Source: Magnetospirillum moscoviense (lineage in GTDB: Bacteria; Pseudomonadota; Alphaproteobacteria; Rhodospirillales; Magnetospirillaceae). From it: a stretch of 64,000 bases of DNA. Shown piece by piece: positions 39,500 through 53,841 of the stretch; the first letter of the stretch is position 1, and the number at the start of each line of letters is the position of its first letter. The position numbers and the translations under genes are program-made. The notes under the pieces are model-generated. The model was given only the letters and a program-made list of their open reading frames with translations, did not search any database and was not told where the DNA came from. The DNA lies in NCBI RefSeq assembly GCF_001650635.1, contig NZ_LWQU01000141.1, positions 62,001-126,000 on the forward strand. The letters run 5' to 3'.

Positions 39500-39838
39500 C
39501 TAGGCCGGGGGCATGGCGGCGACGGCGGTCGCGCGGTCGGGATGAATCTGCAAGATCTTGGCGAAGCCCGAGACATCGAAGATTTCGCGGATATGCGGCT
39601 TCATCGAGCACAGGGCGAACTTGCGCGGTGCGCGGGTCATCTTGGCGCCCACCAGCACGACGCGCAGGCCGGCGCTGGAAATGTAATCCATTTCGGCGAA
39701 ATCGATCAGGATGCGCGGTGCGCCGGAATTGACCACCGCCACCACCTTGGCTTCGAAGGCCTTGGCCGTGGCGCTGTCGACACGGGCGATGGGAACCAGC
39801 ACCGTCAGGCCTTCGCTCACTTCTTCCCTGATTTCCAT
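39500..39838 (-). CDS. STAS-domain anti-sigma factor antagonist
   Basis: This 112-residue protein of the SpoIIAA/RsbV type acts in partner switching. When unphosphorylated it binds an anti-sigma-like ATPase, and a SpoIIE phosphatase reactivates it. The core is RILIDFAEMDYISSAGLRVV, with the phosphorylatable serine in the I-S-S-A-G-L motif (about residue 56). The gene starts four bases after the stop of the SpoIIE/HATPase fusion, which contains both the kinase-like and phosphatase domains expected to act on it. It is the last gene of the six-gene cluster. Confidence 0.92.
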   Translation of the reverse strand: MEIREEVSEGLTVLVPIARVDSATAKAFEAKVVAVVNSGAPRILIDFAEMDYISSAGLRVVLVGAKMTRAPRKFALCSMKPHIREIFDVSGFAKILQIHPDRATAVAAMPPA

Positions 39839-39842
39839 AATC

Positions 39843-42770
39843 TCAACTCTCCTGTTCCGCGGTACCCTTCCACAGGGTCACGACGTTGCGCCCGTCTTCG
39901 CGGCGATACTCGGTTTTATCCATAAACTCCTTCACCAGGAAGACCCCCAGCCCGCCGATCGGGCGGTCGTCCACCTCCAGGGCCAGGTCCGGCTCGGGGG
40001 CTTCGGTGAAGGGATTGTATTCAGCCCCGTCATCGATGATTTCGGTCATCAGCGTCCCGTTGACTAGCACGAACCGGACATGAATGTCGTGATGCTGATC
40101 ATCTGAATACCCATAGGATATGATATTGGTGATCAGTTCATCCAGGCAAAGATTCAGGTTGAAGGCGATCCGTTCGGGCATCCCGTGCCGCTCGACGAAG
40201 GAATCGACCAGCCCGGCCAGGCGTTCCAACTCGGCCAGATCGTTGCTGATGGCCACCTTCAAGACATTGTGATCGTGGTGTTGCAGGGGCGTCGCGGCAA
40301 CAGGTGCCGGGGCCGGGGCCGGGGCCGGGGCGGGCGGCGGCGGCGCGGCCGCGACGATCTTCGGCTTGTTGATGATGCGGATGGCCGGCTTGGCCGCGGG
40401 TTGGGGCGCCGGCTCGGGCTTCTTGATGGCGACCGTTACCGGGGGTTTGGGTTTGGCCACGATCGTCGGCCGGATCACCTTCACCGCCGGGGCGGCTGCG
40501 GCGGCCGGCTGCGAAGCCGGGGGCGGGGCCGGAGTGGGCGCGGGGGGCGGCGCGACGGGCGGCGGGGCGGCATCCATATTCATGACCTCGACCGACGGGG
40601 TGGCCTTGAATCCTGTCAGCATCAACCGGCGATCCGGTTCATCGAACGCTTCCAGGTCGGTGCTGACCCGATCGAAGCTCAAGGACAGCATGGTGATATC
40701 GTCGAATTGCGGCGCTTCGCCGACGAAGGCTTCGACCGCGCGGTGCACCTCGGCGATGATGTCCTGCGGGGCATATCCCCCCAGGGTTCCCAGCTTCTCG
40801 ATCAGGCGAGGTTCGTCGTAAAGGGCCGAGACGACGTCCTGGGCTTCGGTGACGCCATCGGTATAAAGCAAGATGGTGTCGCCGGGGTTCAATTGGAAGG
40901 TACCGGTTTCGTAATCCAGCCCTTCCATCACGCCCAAGGCGACGCCCGAGACATCGCGGATGGCATCGACCTCGCCGCTGGTGCGCAGGATCAAGGACGG
41001 CGGATGGCCGGCATTGCAATAGGCCACCTGGCCGTCACGGGTGTCGAGCACCGCATAGAAGCAGGTGGCGAACAAGGTGTGCGGGTTGTCGGCCGACAAC
41101 ATGGTGTTGACGAAGGCCAGGCACTCGCCGGGGCTGGACGACAACGGCGCCACCGCCTTGATCAGCGAGCGCGCGATCGAGATGAACATCGCCGCCGGGA
41201 CGCCTTTGCCCGAGGCGTCGCCGATGACGAAGCCCAAATGATAGCGGTCGATCAGGAAGAAATCGTAGAAGTCGCCGCCGACCTCCTTGGCCGGGACCAT
41301 GCCGGCATGAATGCGGAACTCGTCGCGGTCGGGGAAGGGCGGGAACACCTGGGGCAGCGACGACAATTGCAGTTCGCGGGCGAAATCCAGTTCCTGGCGC
41401 AGCGCGTCCAACTGTTCGCGGGTCCGCAAGGCTTCGCGCAGCACTTCGGCCTCGCGGGTCCGTTGGGTGATCAGTTCTTGCAACGACAAATGCTGTTCGC
41501 GGATGCGGTCCGACATGGTCTGGAAGGCCACGCCCAGCACTTCCAGTTCGCCCTTGCCGGAATCGGTGTCGCCGGATTCTTCGGGGCCGCGCTCGGCCAT
41601 GGCCTCGATCTGCTTGAGGTCGGCCAGCACGGCGGCGCGGGCCTCTTCCTCCAGCATTTCGCTCATCTTCAGCATCTGCAGGCGGATATACAGTTCCTGG
41701 CGGCGGCGCTGACGTTCGCGGCGCTGCTGCATCAGTTCCAGCTTGACGACATTGTCGCGGAACACGCCGACGGTGCCGGCGATGCGGCCGATCTCGTCCT
41801 GGTCGTTCTTGACCTCAAGCGTGACCGAGGTGTCGCCGCGCGACAGCGCGTTCAGCACGGCGATGGCCTCGTCCAGCGGGTGGAAGGAACGGCGCAGATA
41901 GACGGTGAACAGCGCCAGCAGCACCACCAGGAAGCCGCCGACCGAGCCGATGGCGATCTGGCGGATCTGGCGCTGGCGGGTTTGGGTGGCGGTGACGTCG
42001 CGGGCGGTGACCAGGGCGCCGATCACCCGGGATGCGCCGTCATAGACCGGCAATACGGCGACCGAATAGAAGATTTCGCCCTGCTGCCAGGTTTCCAGCC
42101 GTGATTTACGGACGGAAATCTTGCCTTCGAAGATTTTCCAGATGGAATCGTCGGTCCCCAGTGACAATTGGCCGATACGGTCGACCAGGAAGATTTCAGA
42201 GCCGGTCGAAATCTTGAATTCGGCCAGGGGCGGTTGCATGTCGGCGGCCAGCACGGCGACGCCGATCACCTCGCCCTTGTGCTCGATCGGGAAGGCCAGG
42301 GTGGCTGTGAAGGTGCGCGACGCGTCTTGCAGCACACCGCGCACCGATTTGTTGGAATCGACGATGGTCCGGACGGTGCCGGCATCGACCGTCGGCGGTT
42401 CCAGCAGCGAACCGCGCGAATTGTACAAAAGCTCGCCGTCGCGGTTCATCACTTCGAAGCGGCTGACCTGGCCGCGGGCCCGCATGCCGTCGGCGATCGG
42501 CACCGCCAGGGCCAGGATTTGCGTGGGGTCGCGCTTTTCCACCGCCTGGACCAGGGATTCGTCGGTGGCGACGGCGCGGGCATCGGTTTCCAGCCGCTGC
42601 ACGGTGTTTTCCACCAGCTTGCGCCAGAAGATGTCCTGTCCGTTCAGCGTCGCCTGGGCATAGCGTTCGTCGGCCAGTTCCTCGCTCTTGATGGCGGCGA
42701 AGGTCAGGCCGGCCACCAGCAGCGAAAAGCTGACCGTGACGATCAGGGTTACGCGTGTCCGCAGCAGCAT
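39843..42770 (-). CDS. membrane SpoIIE phosphatase fused to RsbW-like ATPase
   Basis: This is a 975-residue hybrid switch protein. Helix 1 (residues 6-27), a periplasmic sensor of about 240 residues with Cache-like FEVMNRDGELLYNSRGSLL, helix 2 (about 277-297), a HAMP domain and a coiled coil come first. A PP2C/SpoIIE domain follows (about 470-700), with EVGGDFYDFFLID, ASGKGVPAAMFISIARSL and the metal-ligand motif DDITMLSL. Then come a long Pro/Ala linker (about 730-835) and a C-terminal GHKL/HATPase domain (NLCLDELITNIISYGYS; GGLGVFLVKEFMD). It could both phosphorylate and dephosphorylate the adjacent STAS protein. It overlaps the formyltransferase gene by 22 bases. Confidence 0.92.
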   Translation of the reverse strand: MLLRTRVTLIVTVSFSLLVAGLTFAAIKSEELADERYAQATLNGQDIFWRKLVENTVQRLETDARAVATDESLVQAVEKRDPTQILALAVPIADGMRARGQVSRFEVMNRDGELLYNSRGSLLEPPTVDAGTVRTIVDSNKSVRGVLQDASRTFTATLAFPIEHKGEVIGVAVLAADMQPPLAEFKISTGSEIFLVDRIGQLSLGTDDSIWKIFEGKISVRKSRLETWQQGEIFYSVAVLPVYDGASRVIGALVTARDVTATQTRQRQIRQIAIGSVGGFLVVLLALFTVYLRRSFHPLDEAIAVLNALSRGDTSVTLEVKNDQDEIGRIAGTVGVFRDNVVKLELMQQRRERQRRRQELYIRLQMLKMSEMLEEEARAAVLADLKQIEAMAERGPEESGDTDSGKGELEVLGVAFQTMSDRIREQHLSLQELITQRTREAEVLREALRTREQLDALRQELDFARELQLSSLPQVFPPFPDRDEFRIHAGMVPAKEVGGDFYDFFLIDRYHLGFVIGDASGKGVPAAMFISIARSLIKAVAPLSSSPGECLAFVNTMLSADNPHTLFATCFYAVLDTRDGQVAYCNAGHPPSLILRTSGEVDAIRDVSGVALGVMEGLDYETGTFQLNPGDTILLYTDGVTEAQDVVSALYDEPRLIEKLGTLGGYAPQDIIAEVHRAVEAFVGEAPQFDDITMLSLSFDRVSTDLEAFDEPDRRLMLTGFKATPSVEVMNMDAAPPPVAPPPAPTPAPPPASQPAAAAAPAVKVIRPTIVAKPKPPVTVAIKKPEPAPQPAAKPAIRIINKPKIVAAAPPPPAPAPAPAPAPVAATPLQHHDHNVLKVAISNDLAELERLAGLVDSFVERHGMPERIAFNLNLCLDELITNIISYGYSDDQHHDIHVRFVLVNGTLMTEIIDDGAEYNPFTEAPEPDLALEVDDRPIGGLGVFLVKEFMDKTEYRREDGRNVVTLWKGTAEQES

Positions 42771-43654
42771 GACGCCCCCACTCCTTTGGCCGCGGTATGG
42801 GCGAGATGGTCGATGCGGGCGTGCAGCGCCTCGGGGACGAAGCTGCGCAGCTCCTCTAGGTAGTCCGCAGGATCGTAGATACGAAAGCCCTTGGCGGCGA
42901 AGTCCTTGAACGAGTCGGCGCCCGGCAGCGACCCATAGACCCGCTGGCTGCGATCCTGCTCGGTCAGGGCCGGCTGGCGCCCCTCACGCAGGCCATCCAG
43001 CACCTGGAAGAACAGCTCGAGGCCGGGTCGGTAGGTCTGGGTCACATGCCACAACAACGAACGCGCCGGATTGATGTCGATCCAGCCGATGCCGGCGATC
43101 GGGCCGGTGTCGATGCCGCGATCGACCTGGTGCAAGGTGCAGCCGATGCGCTTGCCCCCTTCCAACATGCAGCGGAACGGCGCGAACAGTCCGGCATAGC
43201 GCGGAAGCGCGCCGGGGTGGACGTTATAGGTGCCGAGCGGTGGGATTTCGAAGATGTTCGGCTTGAAGATCAACGAGAACCGCGCCGACAAGATGATGTC
43301 GGGGGCGAAGGCGCGCACCAGCGACTCGCCGTCCTCGCCGTTGATATCGGCGACCACCTGGATCGGGATTCCGTAGCGCCGGGCCAGTCCGTCGAAGGTG
43401 GCGTGGTGGCACGTATCGTCACCGGTGGCGTCGATCAGCGGGAAGATGGTGTCGATCGGCAGGTCGCGTTCGAGGAACTTGATCTCGGCCAGCTCGGGAA
43501 CGGCGTTCTCGACCGGGCGGGTCTTGTCGGACAGCAGCACCATCACCTGGTCGCCGACCAGATGCGACAGGACCTGGTTCAGCACCATGGCCCCGGCCAA
43601 GTCGCGTTTGGTGCACACCAGGATGCGCAATGCCTTCTTGGGCGGCGCGGTCAT
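42749..43654 (-). CDS. formyltransferase-like protein
   Basis: This 301-residue protein has a 10-formyltetrahydrofolate-dependent formyltransferase core: LGTYNVHPGALPRYAG (N-x-H catalytic pair), then CTLHQVDRGIDTGPIAGIG (catalytic Asp). It is shorter than, and diverged from, methionyl-tRNA formyltransferase, so a sugar or small-molecule amine substrate is more likely. The C terminus ends GASCCCGHA, an unusual cysteine run that could bind metal. ATG 43654 overlaps the stop of the binding-protein gene (ATGA). Its place within a signalling operon is unexpected. Confidence 0.8.
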   Translation of the reverse strand: MTAPPKKALRILVCTKRDLAGAMVLNQVLSHLVGDQVMVLLSDKTRPVENAVPELAEIKFLERDLPIDTIFPLIDATGDDTCHHATFDGLARRYGIPIQVVADINGEDGESLVRAFAPDIILSARFSLIFKPNIFEIPPLGTYNVHPGALPRYAGLFAPFRCMLEGGKRIGCTLHQVDRGIDTGPIAGIGWIDINPARSLLWHVTQTYRPGLELFFQVLDGLREGRQPALTEQDRSQRVYGSLPGADSFKDFAAKGFRIYDPADYLEELRSFVPEALHARIDHLAHTAAKGVGASCCCGHA

Positions 43655-44682
43655 GGCTTGCCCCCCGGCCCGTCGATCACCTCGGCCAGGCTCAGCAGGT
43701 TCATCGGCGGATAGACCCCCAGCGCCCGCACCACCGGCATGTTCAAGATGATCGACAGCCGCTTGGGCGCGTCGATGGCGATGTCCTGGGGCGGCTTGTT
43801 GTGAACCAGGATCTGCTCGGCCTTGTAGGCGGTCAGCTGGCCGACGGTGTAATAGCGATAGACCCCGCCGATCAGCGCCTTCGAGGTCACCACCGGATTC
43901 TCGGCCGCCGCGAAGGTCGGCAATTGCTGGTCCAGCGCCGCCTGGGTCAGGATGTCGCGGTTGACGTTCAAGAAGGTGTCCGGCGGGATGTACAGGAACC
44001 CCACGCCGGATTCCTTCAGGCTGGCGACCTTGCCGGGGATGCTGGCCGCCACCGGCTTGCCCTCGACCACATCGACCGGGGCGACGATGACCTCGAAATC
44101 CTGGGCGGTGCCCAGCTCGCGCAATTCGTCGATCGCCACCAGCGAGTTGCGCTCCAGCGGGTTGTAGACCATGCCCAGGCGCTTGACCGGCAGGTACGAC
44201 CTGAGCAGGTTCACCTGGGTTTCCATCGGCACCAGGTACGAGGTGCCGGTGATGTTGCGGCCCGACGAAAGCAGGTTGGGCACCACCTTGGCGCCGACCG
44301 GCTGCGAGACGATGGCGAACACCGCCGGGATGTCGGTGATGTGCTTGGCCGGATCGACCTTGTCGAAGGTCCCCAGCATCTCCTGGGTGACGGTGGTGCC
44401 CCAGGTGAACACCAGGTCGACCTTCATCTCCTTTGCCTCGGCGACGAAGCCGGGCAACTTGCTCTTGTCCTGGGCGCAGTCGCGGATGATCAGCTCGACC
44501 GGGATGCCCTGGTTGGTGAAATAGTCCTTGAAGCCTTGCGCGGCCTCTTCCCAGCCACGGAACAGCGCCATGTAGATGCGGTAGGGCCGGGGCGGCTTGG
44601 CCGGCTGCGCGGCCAGCCCCGAAGGCCAGGCCGCCACGGCCCCCAATCCCCCCAGTCCGGCCAGAAAATCGCGGCGGATCAT
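43651..44682 (-). CDS. periplasmic ABC-type substrate-binding protein
   Basis: This 343-residue secreted binding protein is of the uncharacterised ABC_sub_bind (TrpX-like) type. The N-terminal MIRRDFLAGLGGLGAVAAWP looks like a twin-arginine-style or Sec signal ending A-L-A-A/Q-P-A. The mature protein contains GYNIT-like and family blocks such as VFTWGTTVTQEMLGTFDKV and MPVVRALGVYPPMNLLSLAE. No permease or ATPase gene lies in the cluster, so it may present its ligand to a membrane sensor rather than to a transporter. ATG 44682 overlaps the upstream MFS gene stop (ATGA). Confidence 0.87.
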   Translation of the reverse strand: MIRRDFLAGLGGLGAVAAWPSGLAAQPAKPPRPYRIYMALFRGWEEAAQGFKDYFTNQGIPVELIIRDCAQDKSKLPGFVAEAKEMKVDLVFTWGTTVTQEMLGTFDKVDPAKHITDIPAVFAIVSQPVGAKVVPNLLSSGRNITGTSYLVPMETQVNLLRSYLPVKRLGMVYNPLERNSLVAIDELRELGTAQDFEVIVAPVDVVEGKPVAASIPGKVASLKESGVGFLYIPPDTFLNVNRDILTQAALDQQLPTFAAAENPVVTSKALIGGVYRYYTVGQLTAYKAEQILVHNKPPQDIAIDAPKRLSIILNMPVVRALGVYPPMNLLSLAEVIDGPGGKP

Positions 44683-46775
44683 TCGCCATCCTCCTCGGCA
44701 ACGAGATGCAGGCCGCTGCCGAAGGCGAACGAGCACACCACGAAGATCACCGACAACACCAGCACCACCCCGCCCAGCGCGACCACCGCCCCGGTCAGGC
44801 CCCAGATCGGAATGAAGGCCGCCGCTAAAACCGGCCCGACGATCGAGCCCAGGCGTTCCACGGTGCGGACCAGGGCCAGGACCCGGGTGCGCCCGAAGGT
44901 GTGGCATTCGATCCAGCACAGGTCGGGCACCAGCGCCAATTGCGGCGAGGCCGACAGGCCGTGCGACACCCCCAGGGCGATGATGGCCAGGGCGACCGCC
45001 ATCGACGGTTCCAGGCCCAGTTGCGGCAGCGGCAGCAAAAGGCCCAGGCCGCCGATCAGGCCGCCGATGGCCACCAGCCCGGTACGCCAGCCGGTCAGGT
45101 CCGAGATCCGCGCCGACACCGCCGACAAGATGGCCATGATCAGCGGATACAAGACGATGGTCCGGCCGATCTCGGGCAGCGACATCTCGGCGCGCCACAA
45201 GATCACCGGAACCAGGAAGAACAAAAAGCCGGTCAAGGCCATCTTGGCCGGCACCGCCGCGAACAGCAAAAGCGCGGTGAAGCGCCAGTTGGCGAACAGG
45301 CTGAACAACGACTTGTCGCTGGCCGAGCCGTCGCCGTCGTCGGCGGCCTTACCGCCCTCGGCGCCGGGATCGAGCAGGCGGTGGACCAGCCAGCCGGAAA
45401 TCGCCGCCAGCACCGCCGAAACGACGAAGGTGGCGTCGAAGCCGACCCGTTCGGCCAGCACGCCGCCCATGGCGGTGCCGCAGATCGACGCGGTCAGCAC
45501 GGCGCCGACATAGATGCCCAGGCCCTGGGCCCGCTTGCCTTCCAAGGTGGCGCGCGAGATGTAGGTCTGGCAGGCGACGGTGACCAGGGCGTAACCCAGG
45601 CCCGAGACGATACGCAACACGATCAGCTGAACCACCGAATCGGCGAAGGCGGTCAGGAAATAGCCGCCCGCCGCCGGGATCAGACCGGTCAGGAACACCC
45701 GGCGAGTCCCCAGCCGGGCGATCACCGAGCCGGCCCAGGGCGAGGCCACGGTGATGCCGACCATGAACATGGTGATGGGCAGGGCCATCAGCATTTCCGT
45801 GGTGAACAGGCCGGTGCTCTGGCCGAATTCGCGGGCATAGAGCGGCATGAAGGCGCGGCCCATCTCTTCTGCGAAGACGAACAGGAACAGCGGCAGGCGG
45901 ATGTCGGTGGCCAGGCGTTCGCGCAATACCGCCGGTCGGCCGGATTCGGCGAAGCGATAGAGGAACTTGACGCGGTCGGCGATCTCGGCCACCCGCTCGA
46001 CCACGCTTTTGTCGAAATGGGCGGCACGCACCTCGTCGATATAGGCCATCAAGCTGCGGTACTGGTCGTCGGCGCGGCGGATGGTGGTCGATAAGGTGCG
46101 GACGAAATGTCCGACCTCGTCGCCCGACAGGCCCCCGGCCACATGCGAGAAATCGCCGCGCCGCGCGCGATCGACCACCAGTCCGACCAGCTTCATCGGG
46201 CCGGTGACGTTGAAGAACACCACGAACAGCAAGATCTCGAAGGCGACGATCAGCGAGGCCACCAAGACCACGGCGATGTCGTAGAAGATATCGGACAGCC
46301 GGCTGGCGATATAGCCCTGGTCGAAGCCGACATGGACGGCGGCGACCCGCTCGCCCTTCGACTGGACCGGCAGCGCCAGGTCCAGGAAGTCGCCGATGGT
46401 CAGGTTGGTGGCCTGCCCGGCCTCGCGGTAATGGGGTTCAAGGTCGGCCGACGGGGCGCCGGTGACGAACAGCACCCTTCCGTCGGGGGCCGAGATCGCC
46501 AGGTAGCGCAGTTCCGGATTGGCCATCAGCACCGGGCGGAAGAATTCATCGACCCCCACCAGATGGTCGATCGGAATCCCCAGCTCGACGGCGCGTTCGA
46601 CCTGGGCGGTGATGTCGCGCCCGATGGCGGCGGCCTTCTTGTCCAGTTCCGGGACCATGCCGCGTTCGAACTCGCCCAGCGCGCGGAAGGTGATCATCGC
46701 CACCGGAGGCACCAGGATCAGGATCGCCAGGACGAACAGGCGGACCAGCAGGGGTCGTGAGCGGTCGAGTCTCAT
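44679..46775 (-). CDS. sensor-HAMP-MFS transporter fusion
   Basis: This 698-residue protein has an unusual order of parts. A first helix (about 11-31), a roughly 130-residue periplasmic sensor (RYLAISAPDGRVLFVTGAPS), a second helix (about 163-190) and a HAMP-like segment (TGPMKLVGLVVDRARRGDF) lead into a 12-helix major facilitator domain (about 285-690: LPLFLFVFAEEMGRAFMPLY; GSVIARLGTRRVFLTGLIPA). Sensory input may thus gate a transporter, or the MFS part may itself sense. I chose ATG 46775; the open frame upstream overlaps the 260-residue sensor gene out of frame. Confidence 0.88.
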   Translation of the reverse strand: MRLDRSRPLLVRLFVLAILILVPPVAMITFRALGEFERGMVPELDKKAAAIGRDITAQVERAVELGIPIDHLVGVDEFFRPVLMANPELRYLAISAPDGRVLFVTGAPSADLEPHYREAGQATNLTIGDFLDLALPVQSKGERVAAVHVGFDQGYIASRLSDIFYDIAVVLVASLIVAFEILLFVVFFNVTGPMKLVGLVVDRARRGDFSHVAGGLSGDEVGHFVRTLSTTIRRADDQYRSLMAYIDEVRAAHFDKSVVERVAEIADRVKFLYRFAESGRPAVLRERLATDIRLPLFLFVFAEEMGRAFMPLYAREFGQSTGLFTTEMLMALPITMFMVGITVASPWAGSVIARLGTRRVFLTGLIPAAGGYFLTAFADSVVQLIVLRIVSGLGYALVTVACQTYISRATLEGKRAQGLGIYVGAVLTASICGTAMGGVLAERVGFDATFVVSAVLAAISGWLVHRLLDPGAEGGKAADDGDGSASDKSLFSLFANWRFTALLLFAAVPAKMALTGFLFFLVPVILWRAEMSLPEIGRTIVLYPLIMAILSAVSARISDLTGWRTGLVAIGGLIGGLGLLLPLPQLGLEPSMAVALAIIALGVSHGLSASPQLALVPDLCWIECHTFGRTRVLALVRTVERLGSIVGPVLAAAFIPIWGLTGAVVALGGVVLVLSVIFVVCSFAFGSGLHLVAEEDGE

Positions 46776-46782
46776 CGGGGCC

Positions 46783-47565
46783 TCACGCCAATCGATCCAG
46801 CCGTTCGACCTCTTGGGTCGATTCGGCGATGTGTTCCACGGCCTCGCGCGTCTTGGCGACGAATTCGGCATAGCGGCTTTCGAAGCCGCCCTCGTCGGTC
46901 GGGTCGGGCTCGGCGTCGCCGCCTTCGGCCAGCACCGTGGCCAAGGTGCGCTCCATCGCGCGAAGGCGTCGGCCGACCGATCCCAGCACGACATAGGACG
47001 CAACCAGGGCGATCACCGAGAACAGGCCCAGGGCGGCCAGCAGCTCGACGGCGACGCGGCTGAGCAGCGGGCCCAGTTCGCGGTCGATGAAGGCCGACGG
47101 GAAGCGCAGCACCACGGCGCCTTCGACCTTGCCCAGATTGTTGACCAGCGGCAGTCCGACCAACTGCATGTCGTCATCCATCAGCGAGAAGGGCTGGCTG
47201 GATGGCTGGGCCAGCGGCTCCAGCCACTTGGCCGGCACGCTGACGCCGATGCCGCCGCGATCGGTGTTGAACAGCACCTCGCCCCGCGCGTCGTAAATCT
47301 CGATGCCCAGGATCTGGTCGTCGCGGACCTTCTCGAGTTCGATGGTTTCCTGGATTTGGCGCAATTGGCGCAGGGCCAGGCCCAGGTTCAGGCGGTCCTC
47401 GATGTTCTTCTTGATGGTGAAGACGACGAAGCTGTAGCGCGACCGGACCAGCGAGGACAACACATCCTCGAATTTGTAATAGCCGAACACCGCGGTCAGC
47501 AGCCCTGTGCATAACAGGATGGCCACCAATGCCGCCGAAACCTTCCGGGCGAGAGACCACGACAT
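46783..47565 (-). CDS. membrane sensor protein with periplasmic domain
   Basis: This 260-residue protein has an N-terminal helix (VSAALVAILLCTGLLTAVFG), a periplasmic region of about 130 residues resembling a Cache sensor (IEIYDARGEVLFNTDRGGIG; GLPLVNNLGKVEGAVVLRFP), a second helix (VELLAALGLFSVIALVASYV) and a short HAMP-like/coiled-coil cytoplasmic tail. It has no kinase, cyclase or methyl-accepting output domain, so it must signal through a partner. It opens the six-gene leftward cluster and is followed seven bases later by the MFS fusion, whose N-terminal sensor it resembles. Confidence 0.85.
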   Translation of the reverse strand: MSWSLARKVSAALVAILLCTGLLTAVFGYYKFEDVLSSLVRSRYSFVVFTIKKNIEDRLNLGLALRQLRQIQETIELEKVRDDQILGIEIYDARGEVLFNTDRGGIGVSVPAKWLEPLAQPSSQPFSLMDDDMQLVGLPLVNNLGKVEGAVVLRFPSAFIDRELGPLLSRVAVELLAALGLFSVIALVASYVVLGSVGRRLRAMERTLATVLAEGGDAEPDPTDEGGFESRYAEFVAKTREAVEHIAESTQEVERLDRLA

Positions 47566-50649: not shown

Positions 50650-51351
50650 CTATTCCGGCAGGGCGAAGGCCATGACGGTTCTCCGGCCGCCCCGGCGGAT
50701 CGCCAGATCCTGGCAGCAGGCGCGAATCATCGCCAAGCCATTGCCGCCGCCGGCCGACAAGACGATGTCGCGGGGCGCGACCGGGGTGAAGCCGCGTCCG
50801 CAATCATCGACCCAGATCACCATCCGGCCGCCGCAGGTCACGGCTCCGACCGTCACCGGGCGGAACGCGTAGGCCGGATCGGCGGTTCGGCGTTCCATCT
50901 CGGCGGCGAACTCGACCAACCCCTCCAGGTTACCGCGCTGGGCGGTCTTCAGGTCCAGGTTGCCGTGCAGGACGGCGTTGCCGATGGCTTCCTGCAGGGC
51001 CATGGCGATCTTGCCCTCGACCGGGGCCAGGCCAGGCTGACGGCAGATCACCGCCTTGGTGAAGGCGCTGGCGCCGTCGATCTTCAAGGCGGTGCGGGTG
51101 GAAAGCCGCCACACCAGCACGTCGGGGCGCATGGGCATGGCGTGCCGCGCCGACAGGCAGGCGACGTCCAGCGCCGCTGATATCGGGTTTGCCAGAAGCG
51201 CGTCGAAGTCGGCGTTGTCGCCGTCGAACAAGGCGACCCTGAGGGCGCCGCGCCGCGCCGAGGTCAGCCTGGACAAGGATTGCCGCGCCACCTCGCACGC
51301 GGCGGCGGGAACGCCGCAGGCGATCAGTTCGATGGAGGGTGGCGAGGCCAT
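50650..51351 (-). CDS. anti-sigma-type HATPase protein
   Basis: This 233-residue cytoplasmic protein has a C-terminal GHKL ATPase domain of the RsbW/SpoIIAB kind: MALQEAIGNAVLHGNLDLKT (N box, about residue 116), VIWVDDCGRGFTPV (G1) and GGGNGLAMIRACC (G2). The N-terminal roughly 100 residues are not recognised and may be a receiver-like or binding domain. It follows a STAS gene by four bases, so it is the likely kinase or binding partner in a second partner-switching module, placed behind a chemoreceptor. Confidence 0.88.
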   Translation of the reverse strand: MASPPSIELIACGVPAAACEVARQSLSRLTSARRGALRVALFDGDNADFDALLANPISAALDVACLSARHAMPMRPDVLVWRLSTRTALKIDGASAFTKAVICRQPGLAPVEGKIAMALQEAIGNAVLHGNLDLKTAQRGNLEGLVEFAAEMERRTADPAYAFRPVTVGAVTCGGRMVIWVDDCGRGFTPVAPRDIVLSAGGGNGLAMIRACCQDLAIRRGGRRTVMAFALPE

Positions 51352-51355
51352 GAAG

Positions 51356-51655
51356 TCACGCGAACGGGAACAGATCCTTGAAGCCGGCGCGGCTCAGGAC
51401 CTCGTGCACGGGACCGGTGGCCCCTTTCAGGGTGACGGTCACGTTGGCGGCGCGGGACTGGTCATAAACATGGATGAACAGGCTCATGCCGGTGGAATCG
51501 ATGAATTCCAGGCCGGACAGGTCGATGGTGCACGACTGGGTTTCTTGCATCACCTCGCGCAGGAATTGCGGGAAATGCGGCGCGTCGGCGAAGGTCAGGC
51601 GCCCGGTAATGCCGGCAGTGACGGCGGCGCCGTTGCGGTTGACGGTATATTTCAT
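51356..51655 (-). CDS. STAS-domain anti-sigma factor antagonist
   Basis: This is a 99-residue SpoIIAA/RsbV-like protein. The conserved segment is CTIDLSGLEFIDSTGMSLFI, with the expected phosphorylated Ser in D-S-T-G-M (about residue 54). VTVTLKGATGPVHEVLSRAG follows. It lies between the NIT-domain chemoreceptor gene (34 bases upstream) and the HATPase gene (four bases downstream), all leftward. It differs clearly from the STAS protein at 39500, so the two modules are not recent duplicates. Confidence 0.92.
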   Translation of the reverse strand: MKYTVNRNGAAVTAGITGRLTFADAPHFPQFLREVMQETQSCTIDLSGLEFIDSTGMSLFIHVYDQSRAANVTVTLKGATGPVHEVLSRAGFKDLFPFA

Positions 51656-51689: not shown

Positions 51690-53747
51690 TTACGCCGACC
51701 GAATGGTGGTCAGGAAGACGTTGACCTGGTCACGCAGCGACGTCGCCCGGTTCGACACCGACCGGGCCGTTTCCAGAACGTCCGACGCCGCCTTGCCGGT
51801 TTCGTCGGCCGCCTGGTTGACCCCCATGACGTTCGAGCTGACCTCGGCGGTGGCTTGGGCCACCTGCTGGGCGTTGGTGGCGATTTCCGCGGTGGCGGTG
51901 TCTTGCAGGTGGACCGATTCGGCGATGCCGGACGAGATCGTGCTCATTTCCTCGATGATCCCGGTGATCTCGCCGATGGCGCCGACGGCGCTGCGGGTCT
52001 CTTGCTGGACGGCGCGGATCTGCGTGGCGATTTCCTCGGTGGCGCGCGCCGTCTGGTTGGCCAGGCTTTTGACTTCGTTGGCGACGACGGCGAAGCCCTT
52101 GCCGGCGTCGCCGGCCCGGGCCGCCTCGATGGTGGCGTTCAGGGCCAACAGGTTGGTCTGGCTGGCGATGGCGTTGATCAGCTCGATCACCTCGCCGATC
52201 TTGCTGACCGTCGTCGACAGCGCCTGGACCGAATGGTTGGTCGCCTGCACGCGGGACTTGGCGGTGTCGGCGATGGTCACCGATTCGCCCACGCGCCGCT
52301 TGATGTCCTCGACCGAGCCGGCCAATTGCTCGGCGGCGCCGGCGACGGTGCGCATGTTGACGGCGGTCTCCTCGACCGCGGCGGCGACCACGGTGGCCTG
52401 GTTCGAGGTCTCCTCGGCGGTGGCGCTCATCGCCTGGGCGGTGGCGTCCAGTTCGGTGGCCGACGACGACATGGTCTCCAGCACCTCGGCGACTTCCTGG
52501 TTGAAGCGTTCCAGGATGCCGTCGATGACACGGGCGCGCCGATCCTTGACCTGCTGCTCGGCCTCTTGCTGTCGTTGCAGATCGTCGGCGCGGATCAGTC
52601 CCTGGCGGAACACCTCGACGGCGCGGGCCATGTCGCCGATCTCGTCCGAGCGGTTGCCGTCGCTGTCCACCGGCTCACGGCCGCCCTTGGACAGCAGGTT
52701 CATGGCGGTGATGACCTTGGCCAGCGGACGGGTGATGTCGGTGGCGATGAACCACGCGATGCCCAGACCCGCCACCATCAGGACCAAGGTGCTGATCAAG
52801 GTGGCGTAAAGGCTGCTCTCGGCCCGATCATGGACGGACCCGGCCAGTTCGGCCAGGTCGGCGGCGACCTTGTCCTCGACCGCCTTCATCAGGTCGATCT
52901 TCTTGGTGATGGTGTCGAACCATACCGGCCCCTCGATGCCGCCGGTGTCGCCGCTGAACGCGCTTTCCATGGCGACCAGGCGCATGCGATCGACCTCTTT
53001 CGTGATCGGGTCGACCAACACCTTGTCCAGCATCGCTTTCTGGTCGGCGGTGGCATAGGCGGCGAAATTGGCGAAGAAGGTTTCCTGGCGGGCGATCAAT
53101 TGGGTGAAGCGACGCAGGATCACTCCTTCGAATTTCTTGGCGCCGAAGCCGGCCGAACCGGTGGCGCGTTCCTGGCCGGCTCGTTCCTTGCCGTGCAGCA
53201 TCTGGGCATAGGCGATCGACGCCTTGGTCACCTCGGCATCGGTGCTGATGGCGGCCATCCGCTCGATCAGGGCCAGCATGCGGGCGATCAGACCGGAATA
53301 ATAGTCGGCCGCCTCGACGGCGGTGATCGACAGCCCGTCGACGGCGGCGCGTTTGTCGCGCAACTGGGCCAGGGCGGAGTTCAGGGCGGCGATGCCGTCG
53401 GCCAATTGCGCCCCGGCCGGGCCCGCCGCCACCTTCTTGACGGCGTCGTTCAGGCCTTCTGCGCGGGCGTCGGTGGCCTTGCGCACCTCGGGCAGGCGGT
53501 CGCGGAACTTCTCGCCCTTGCTGCCGATGAAGCCGGCCGAGGTGCCGCGTTCCTTTTGCAGTTCATGCACCACCGCGCCGATGACCGGGCCGATGGCCGC
53601 CACTTCCTCGAGCTGGTTCATCCGCGAGGCGAAGGCTGCCTTCTCGACAACCGCCGCGCCGGCATACCACAGCATCCCGAGAATCGGGACCAGCATGGCC
53701 AGACCAATCCGAGGGCCGATCCGGAGTTTGTGCAGCAGGCTCAACAT
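51690..53747 (-). CDS. NIT-domain methyl-accepting chemotaxis protein
   Basis: This 685-residue chemoreceptor has helix 1 ([20 protein letters not shown]) and a periplasmic NIT (nitrate/nitrite-sensing) domain. The NIT domain is recognised by [20 protein letters not shown] and the paired helical [20 protein letters not shown]. Helix 2 ([20 protein letters not shown]), HAMP and the signalling domain follow, with the hairpin tip [20 protein letters not shown] (about residue 520). ATG 53747 has GGAG six bases upstream; longer starts at 53759 and 53813 are possible. It heads the STAS/HATPase operon, so its output may branch from chemotaxis to partner switching. Confidence 0.9.
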
Positions 53748-53841
53748 TGTCAGCTCCATGAAACTCGACGGGGCGGGAATGGTACGGTGCCTAAACCACA
53801 AGATAGCGGACAAAAGGATCGCATCCTTGACCTTGATTAAT

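Follow-up and report, generated by a model that had tools for sequence, protein, structure and literature searches.

A Cache–HAMP receptor stalk fused to a major facilitator transporter in Magnetospirillum moscoviense, and the genes that accompany it

HAMP segments are thought of as couplers that join sensors to kinases, cyclases and chemoreceptors. A gene of Magnetospirillum moscoviense in which such a segment seems to lead into a transporter therefore raises the question of what the segment couples, and to what. The gene lies on the minus strand of a 64,000-nt stretch of contig NZ_LWQU01000141.1 (positions 62,001 to 126,000; hereafter the window, in which all coordinates of this locus are given). 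An initial annotation had proposed that ligand sensing gates transport or, alternatively, that the major facilitator superfamily (MFS) domain has become a membrane-embedded sensor feeding a downstream switch. Here, we report that the fusion recurs widely as a single reading frame, that its HAMP segment is recognizable in the family profile, and that the gene has two conserved partners absent from that annotation: a second Cache receptor, which we term sens2, and a substrate-binding protein (SBP) of family PF04392. The conserved gene cluster suggests that transport and sensing are carried out by one membrane complex.

The fusion protein and its family

The frame at 44679–46775 had been placed correctly: it comprises 698 codons and a TGA, uninterrupted by internal stops, and the gene is present once in the 4.16-Mb draft genome. 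From its N terminus, the product consists of a transmembrane (TM) helix, a periplasmic domain of around 120 residues, a second TM helix, the HAMP-like segment, a helical linker and the MFS domain, which is the layout originally described.

44679..46775, minus strand: Cache–HAMP–MFS fusion protein, 698 aa (open reading frame (ORF), translation and MFS_1 match)
46296..46658, minus strand: periplasmic Cache-type sensor between the two TM helices, roughly residues 40–160 (weak sCache_3_2 match and model)
46047..46205, minus strand: HAMP segment, roughly residues 191–243 (profile–profile match, family residues and Pfam matches of relatives)
45900..46046, minus strand: helical linker from HAMP to the first MFS helix, roughly residues 244–292 (alignment and low-confidence model)
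44706..45899, minus strand: MFS domain, roughly residues 293–690 (Pfam MFS_1, Foldseek and conserved charged residues)

MFS_1 covers residues 297–619 (E 6.5e-34; 117.8 bits against a cut-off of 33.4), Foldseek matches the MFS part to MFS structures, and the Pfam scan detects no STAC or kinase domain in the chain. The periplasmic domain matches sCache_3_2 at residues 124–162 (E 0.0021, below the cut-off). In the AlphaFold2 model, which has a mean pLDDT of 49.8 and was built on an alignment of only 7 close sequences, this zone reaches a pLDDT of around 70–82 over most of residues 50–150, and its helices and strands follow a Cache-like order. The same order is found in the model of sens2 (mean pLDDT 61), which Foldseek matches to Cache domains, namely those of CitA, WalK and DcuS. 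Taken together, these features place a Cache fold between the two TM helices. Because HAMP segments and the N terminus of MFS transporters are both cytoplasmic, the topology of the junction is consistent. The linker is missing or short in some relatives.

The HAMP assignment is carried by the family. Pfam returns no HAMP match in the fusion protein itself, even at E ≤ 1. The monomeric model has a pLDDT of 26–38 across the zone in which a parallel four-helix bundle would be expected of HAMP, and places helices there at residues 193–205 and 220–253, breaks that would fit such a segment. We aligned 37 family members and compared columns 182–243 with a HAMP reference profile built from neighbouring SpoIIE and MCP proteins; the profile–profile match reaches a probability of 97.1% over 45 columns (E 4.8e-11), and columns taken from the Cache domain and the linker of the same alignment score 0.9% and 0.7%. 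The consensus of the region reads V..P, then L.....GDF, then DE.G.F....N, with P193 kept in 35 of the 37 members, E220 in 28, G207 in 26, D219 in 24 and G222 in 23. Pfam HAMP appears at E ≤ 1 in 13 of the 37 and passes its curated cut-off in four of ten members scanned singly (L118, L123, L038 and L120; L-numbers denote loci of relatives, and G-numbers genomes), in each case between TM2 and the first MFS helix. At i-E < 0.01, an HMM scan of single sequences finds HAMP in 14 of 84 relatives, and the reversed controls yield no match. The HAMP identity of the segment thus rests on the family profile and on relatives, not on a match of the protein's own sequence, and it is on these grounds that the proposed fusion of a HAMP segment to a transporter holds.

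The fusion is not a local oddity. At 1e-30, matches occur in 76 of the 317 genomes of the window's order; of the 77 matches (its own included), 46 begin within residues 1–40 and end beyond residue 600, 26 are limited to the MFS part, 4 start mid-Cache and 1 is cut, and nearly all of the ORFs re-examined begin with two TM helices ahead of the MFS. The family profile at 1e-40 matches 34 of 385 genomes of the class and 12 of 398 genomes of a phylum sample, with full-length matches outside the class but within the phylum in G997 and G832. At 1e-60, matches are found in 57 of 82 genomes of the order of G366. Two further orders yielded matches in 2 of 43 and 1 of 2 genomes. Fusions of this kind, for which a profile search had been advised, are found in other parts of the phylum as well. 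Among the 84 unique relatives used for all counts of gene company (window excluded), the MFS chain includes the sensor part in 82; because this frame is continuous in so many of them, both a sequencing or chance fusion and an MFS part translated as a separate unit are ruled out. Two loci, L183 and L184, hold second MFS copies that have a short hydrophobic N-terminal part and for which no Cache or SBP neighbour was found, a further reduced form.

The MFS domain of the window looks transport-competent because it retains the near-invariant charged residues, namely E303 (kept in 34 of the 37 aligned members), R388 (36), K511 (33), D559 (35), R637 (35) and E640 (36). Residue G437 is kept in all 37, and R641 is also kept in the window. 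The family has motif-C-like glycines and a TM4 Arg, and the first motif A of the window protein lacks its Asp; we take these conserved residues to correspond to MFS motifs A, B and C.

Partners encoded with the fusion protein

The fusion gene is the second of six close-packed minus-strand genes, the other five of which are as follows.

46783..47565, minus strand: sens2, TM–Cache–TM with a short HAMP-like tail, 260 aa (model, Foldseek and gene company)
43651..44682, minus strand: SBP of family PF04392 with a Tat-like signal (PF04392, E 1.6e-28)
42749..43654, minus strand: formyltransferase-like enzyme, 301 aa (Formyl_trans_N, E 1.1e-15)
39843..42770, minus strand: dCache–HAMP–SpoIIE phosphatase with a C-terminal HATPase, 975 aa (Pfam)
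39500..39838, minus strand: STAS antagonist protein, 112 aa (STAS, E 1.4e-12)

The gene for sens2 lies directly upstream of the fusion gene, 7 bases away. Its product has no Pfam match and no output domain. A separate upstream sens2 occurs in 63 of the 84 relatives, and 18 more are flagged as having two sensor modules in one chain (among them L053, the start of which is uncertain), for a total of 81; L067, L133 and L151 have neither form. In L144, L136, L134, L149 and others, a single chain runs TM–Cache–TM–TM–Cache–TM, with or without HAMP, and then MFS (L144 has four TMs before the MFS). That these two-sensor chains occur without a separate sens2 argues for a 1:1 working ratio of sens2 to the MFS protein.

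The sens2 proteins of effector-linked pairs end in an RLD/RID-type motif, the C terminus in the window being VERLDRLA. The motif was first spotted by eye, post hoc, and counted afterwards, giving 29 of 32 linked, 1 of 29 unlinked and 1 of 8 undetermined sens2 proteins. With the pattern fixed, 36 sens2 proteins of newly fetched genomes gave 9 of 12, 1 of 20 and 1 of 4, respectively, a count in which linked rows L203 and L204 were mis-assigned, a length filter having dropped the true effector-side sens2. A recount with a limit of 400 aa, leaving out L204 and the undetermined rows, gave 38 of 44 for linked and 3 of 51 for unlinked sens2 proteins. The motif marks an effector-linked subfamily that includes near relatives of the window's sens2, and the tail is a candidate docking site.

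The start of the SBP gene overlaps the stop of the fusion gene by ATGA, and nothing else in the genome matches PF04392. Relatives with an SBP no more than 3.5 kb away number 79 of the 84, of which 73 have it on the same strand, and all ten SBPs checked pass the PF04392 cut-off; the five loci with no SBP within that distance (L053, L065, L066, L067 and L088) include some on short contigs. By sequence, the nearest solved relatives of the window SBP are 6hni, 3lkv and 3lft, which we take to be, in part, binders of aromatic amino acids; this suggests an amino-acid-like ligand. Neither an ABC ATPase nor an ABC permease was found among the scanned neighbours in the window (the search for permeases did not extend beyond these neighbours). 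Around the relatives, ABC_tran, one of the 25 commonest of 73 families, occurs in 3 of the 107 flanking ORFs scanned. An ordinary ABC importer with a misplaced SBP is unsupported by the neighbours scanned. At L133, L151, L189, L192, L201 and L202, stand-alone MFS genes without a sensor diverge from one or two SBP-family genes, confirmed as PF04392 at L133, L151 and L192.

The downstream switch that the initial annotation had invoked is present in the same gene run. The 975-residue protein contains dCache (E around 1e-8), HAMP (1.1e-10), SpoIIE (1.4e-49) and HATPase_c_2 (7.3e-25) domains; encoded together with the STAS antagonist, it completes the gene content of a partner switch, comprising a SpoIIE phosphatase, a STAS antagonist and a HATPase kinase. 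Its gene overlaps that of the formyltransferase by 22 bases, and the latter has a short overlap with the SBP gene. Thirty-eight of the 84 relatives have a SpoIIE domain no more than 9 kb away (33 on the same strand) and 27 have a STAS domain in the fetched stretch, both lower bounds as several contigs end earlier. At L123 (2258–4441), a dCache–HAMP effector carries a guanylate cyclase domain in place of SpoIIE, so that the output module looks interchangeable. Elsewhere in the window, a second HATPase and STAS pair (50650–51655, minus strand), apparently another partner switch, adjoins a NIT–HAMP chemoreceptor (51690–53813).

The formyltransferase is mainly limited to near relatives. At L040, L118, L121 and L038, as in genomes G209, G437, G587 and G079, a Pantoate_transf-like gene occupies its site just downstream of the SBP; by name, both are one-carbon/folate-type enzymes. 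At L006 (8001–11948) and L155 (8299–12246), a 1315-residue frame continues from the MFS to take in the formyltransferase and skips the SBP, which lies in a different frame; this is likely a frameshift or assembly error.

The SpoIIE protein, too, takes part in natural fusions. In L128 and L130, the family's Cache–HAMP (domain E around 1e-57) is joined to the N terminus of the dCache–HAMP–SpoIIE protein and the MFS is gone; Pfam places HAMP at residues 198–248 of L128 (1.3e-11), together with SpoIIE (2.5e-51). This fusion argues for a place of the Cache–HAMP stalk beside the SpoIIE receptor. Two receptor pairs occur at some loci, one with an intact MFS and an SBP, and the other beside an effector. 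The effector-side copies keep Cache–HAMP, and their membrane part is eroded or unrecognizable: the MFS profile probability is 96.3% in L123, 97.1% in L124, 55.7% in L125, 21.4% in L129 and around 1% or less in L126, L147 and L044, with reversed controls at or below 3.1%. In the order of G366, the effector-linked copies have around six helices and no MFS similarity (0.17% with an 11-sequence profile), and an MFS origin for that six-TM part is accordingly rejected. We therefore regard as eroded MFS copies only L123, L124 and L186, with L182 and L125 as weak cases. The one pair of the window has intact MFS residues and shares its run of genes with the effector. In L067 (6349–10737, minus strand; G113), one ORF of 1462 residues comprises HAMP–MFS, then Peripla_BP_6, and then a C-terminal four-TM part, the RYPFDRQ motif of which is reminiscent of pentameric ligand-gated channels; the binding-protein and channel part is a separate frame in G136.

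Transport, sensing or both

We propose, giving it an even chance, that the locus encodes an SBP-served transceptor complex, in which a Cache/HAMP-coupled MFS transporter reports to a SpoIIE/STAS partner switch; we infer the pairing of the two receptors, the docking of the SBP, transport as such, its gating and the direction in which the signal runs. The cytoplasmic N terminus of the transporter would be the end of a TM–Cache–TM–HAMP receptor stalk. Through its Cache and HAMP parts, the fusion protein most likely pairs with sens2 in a 1:1 hetero-receptor, as sens2 has the same TM–Cache–TM plan and no output of its own. The SBP, once secreted, may capture ligand and present it to the Cache ectodomains, the mouth of the MFS or both. 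Ligand or transport state could then twist the HAMP bundle, setting the conformation of the MFS and so gating transport, and the HAMP signal could pass sideways within the membrane to the dCache–HAMP–SpoIIE–HATPase protein, which would in turn control how far the product of the last gene, the STAS protein, is phosphorylated.

Several observations weigh against this proposal. Co-localization of genes does not prove contact between their products. At a pLDDT of 26–38, the predicted structure gives HAMP in the fusion protein no support, and some members with the sensor–MFS chain, such as L053, have a weak HAMP or have lost it. The sens2 tree clusters the linked rows, with 6 changes and with 1 independent pair on well-supported branches or 6 on all, so that the motif is largely a subfamily trait and its statistics do not represent independent events; its value as independent evidence is weakened accordingly. 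Finally, no SpoIIE domain is seen up to 9 kb away in 46 of the 84 relatives (some contigs ending earlier), which indicates that the SpoIIE switch is not obligatory.

This last count, together with the near-constant retention of the sensor–MFS chain, sens2 and the SBP, would also suit a gated transporter only, in which Cache–HAMP, with sens2, opens and shuts the MFS while the SpoIIE protein, merely co-transcribed, answers the ligand of its own dCache. We consider this unlikely, given that L128 and L130 join the same Cache–HAMP module to the SpoIIE protein and that eroded-MFS copies stay beside SpoIIE or cyclase. The opposite simplification, an MFS fold that no longer transports and serves as a membrane-embedded ligand sensor or scaffold for the SpoIIE switch, draws on the effector-linked paralogues, which retain Cache–HAMP while the MFS similarity fades from L123 and L124 to L126, L147 and L044. 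The near-invariant coupling residues of the window MFS and its relatives, and the dedicated SBP that accompanies them, make it quite improbable here. Both of the alternatives first envisaged find an echo in the family: the intact charged residues of the window point to a transport-competent MFS, which the sensor may gate, and the eroded effector-side copies favour the sensor, against which the window's own residues stand.

It is also conceivable, with a probability we hold to be low, that signalling is secondary and that the locus encodes an SBP-dependent MFS transporter, with the SBP as obligate delivery protein, as in TRAP systems, and Cache–HAMP as its platform for docking and gating. The SBP, one of the partners that vary least, stays beside the divergent stand-alone MFS genes that have no sensor, and is rarely flanked by ABC_tran in the ORFs scanned; yet it could serve the Cache receptors only. 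The periplasmic-binding-protein domain behind the MFS of L067 points the same way, but belongs to another family and to a channel-like protein encoded separately in G136. That the stalk is a passive, ornamental anchor with no regulatory meaning is scarcely credible: linker length and HAMP vary widely among members, but 82 of the 84 relatives keep the sensor half and 81 keep sens2 or its fused equivalent.

More broadly, the transceptor complex may exemplify an unrecognized class of SBP-served MFS transceptors, in which sens2 and Cache–HAMP would gate an MFS served by an orphan SBP and drive SpoIIE or cyclase in trans, with the transporter decaying to a pure receptor in side lineages; this generalization is tentative, and we would not yet expect it to hold.

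Comparison with known systems

By sequence, the solved proteins nearest to the family MFS profile are the DHA-type exporters NorA, VMAT, MdfA and EmrB, none of which, to our knowledge, has a Cache–HAMP stalk. In TRAP and TTT systems, an SBP works with a secondary transporter in the absence of an ABC ATPase, and both the transporter folds and the SBP families differ from those of the window. The window likewise places an SBP beside a secondary transporter, with no ABC ATPase among the neighbours scanned, a gene company that makes SBP dependence a possibility here; TRAP transporters are described as SBP-dependent (PMC9352664). The dCache–HAMP–SpoIIE effector and STAS antagonist resemble SiaA-type SpoIIE phosphatases and RsbU/RsbW/RsbV switches, and the NCBIfam SiaA model matches the SpoIIE protein below its cut-off (E 1.4e-20). 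In contrast to SiaA and RsbU, however, the phosphatase chain also carries a HATPase and is preceded by genes for a transporter, an SBP and sens2.

The SLC5–STAC transceptors CbrA, CrbS and RpuS are described as combining a secondary transporter and a signalling module in one chain, with transport coupled to signalling (PMC13022988, PMC7096432, PMC5715377, PMC9100948), an arrangement that the fusion protein shares. In these systems, the transporter has the SLC5 fold and provides the input, and a histidine kinase in the same chain the output; here, the Cache–HAMP input is N-terminal, the chain ends in MFS and the role of effector falls to SpoIIE in another protein. With an MFS domain, and no STAC or kinase domain found by Pfam in the chain, the protein lies outside that family. 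GlnH–GlnX–PknG of Corynebacterium is described as a system in which a periplasmic binding protein signals to a Ser/Thr switch in another protein by way of a transmembrane receptor that is not a kinase (PMC9769921). Unlike the fusion protein, GlnX has four TM segments, the abstract mentions no transporter domain, and the effector is the kinase PknG. CbrA-type transceptors and GlnH–GlnX are parallels, and neither is a membership. The titles and abstract openings searched contain no description of a HAMP–MFS or Cache–MFS protein, which does not show its absence from print.

The widespread HAMP–MFS lineage would offer a system in which to ask whether transporter gating can be driven by HAMP motions, and the reverse, and the loci with two receptor pairs, where intact and eroded transporters stand side by side, form a natural series from transporter to receptor. 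If proven, the constant company of the SBP would extend binding-protein dependence to the MFS, and if coupled signalling were shown as well, the family would constitute a new class. SBP-served MFS transceptors would then be the MFS counterpart of TRAP, in SBP delivery, and of CbrA, in transport-coupled signalling, at once.

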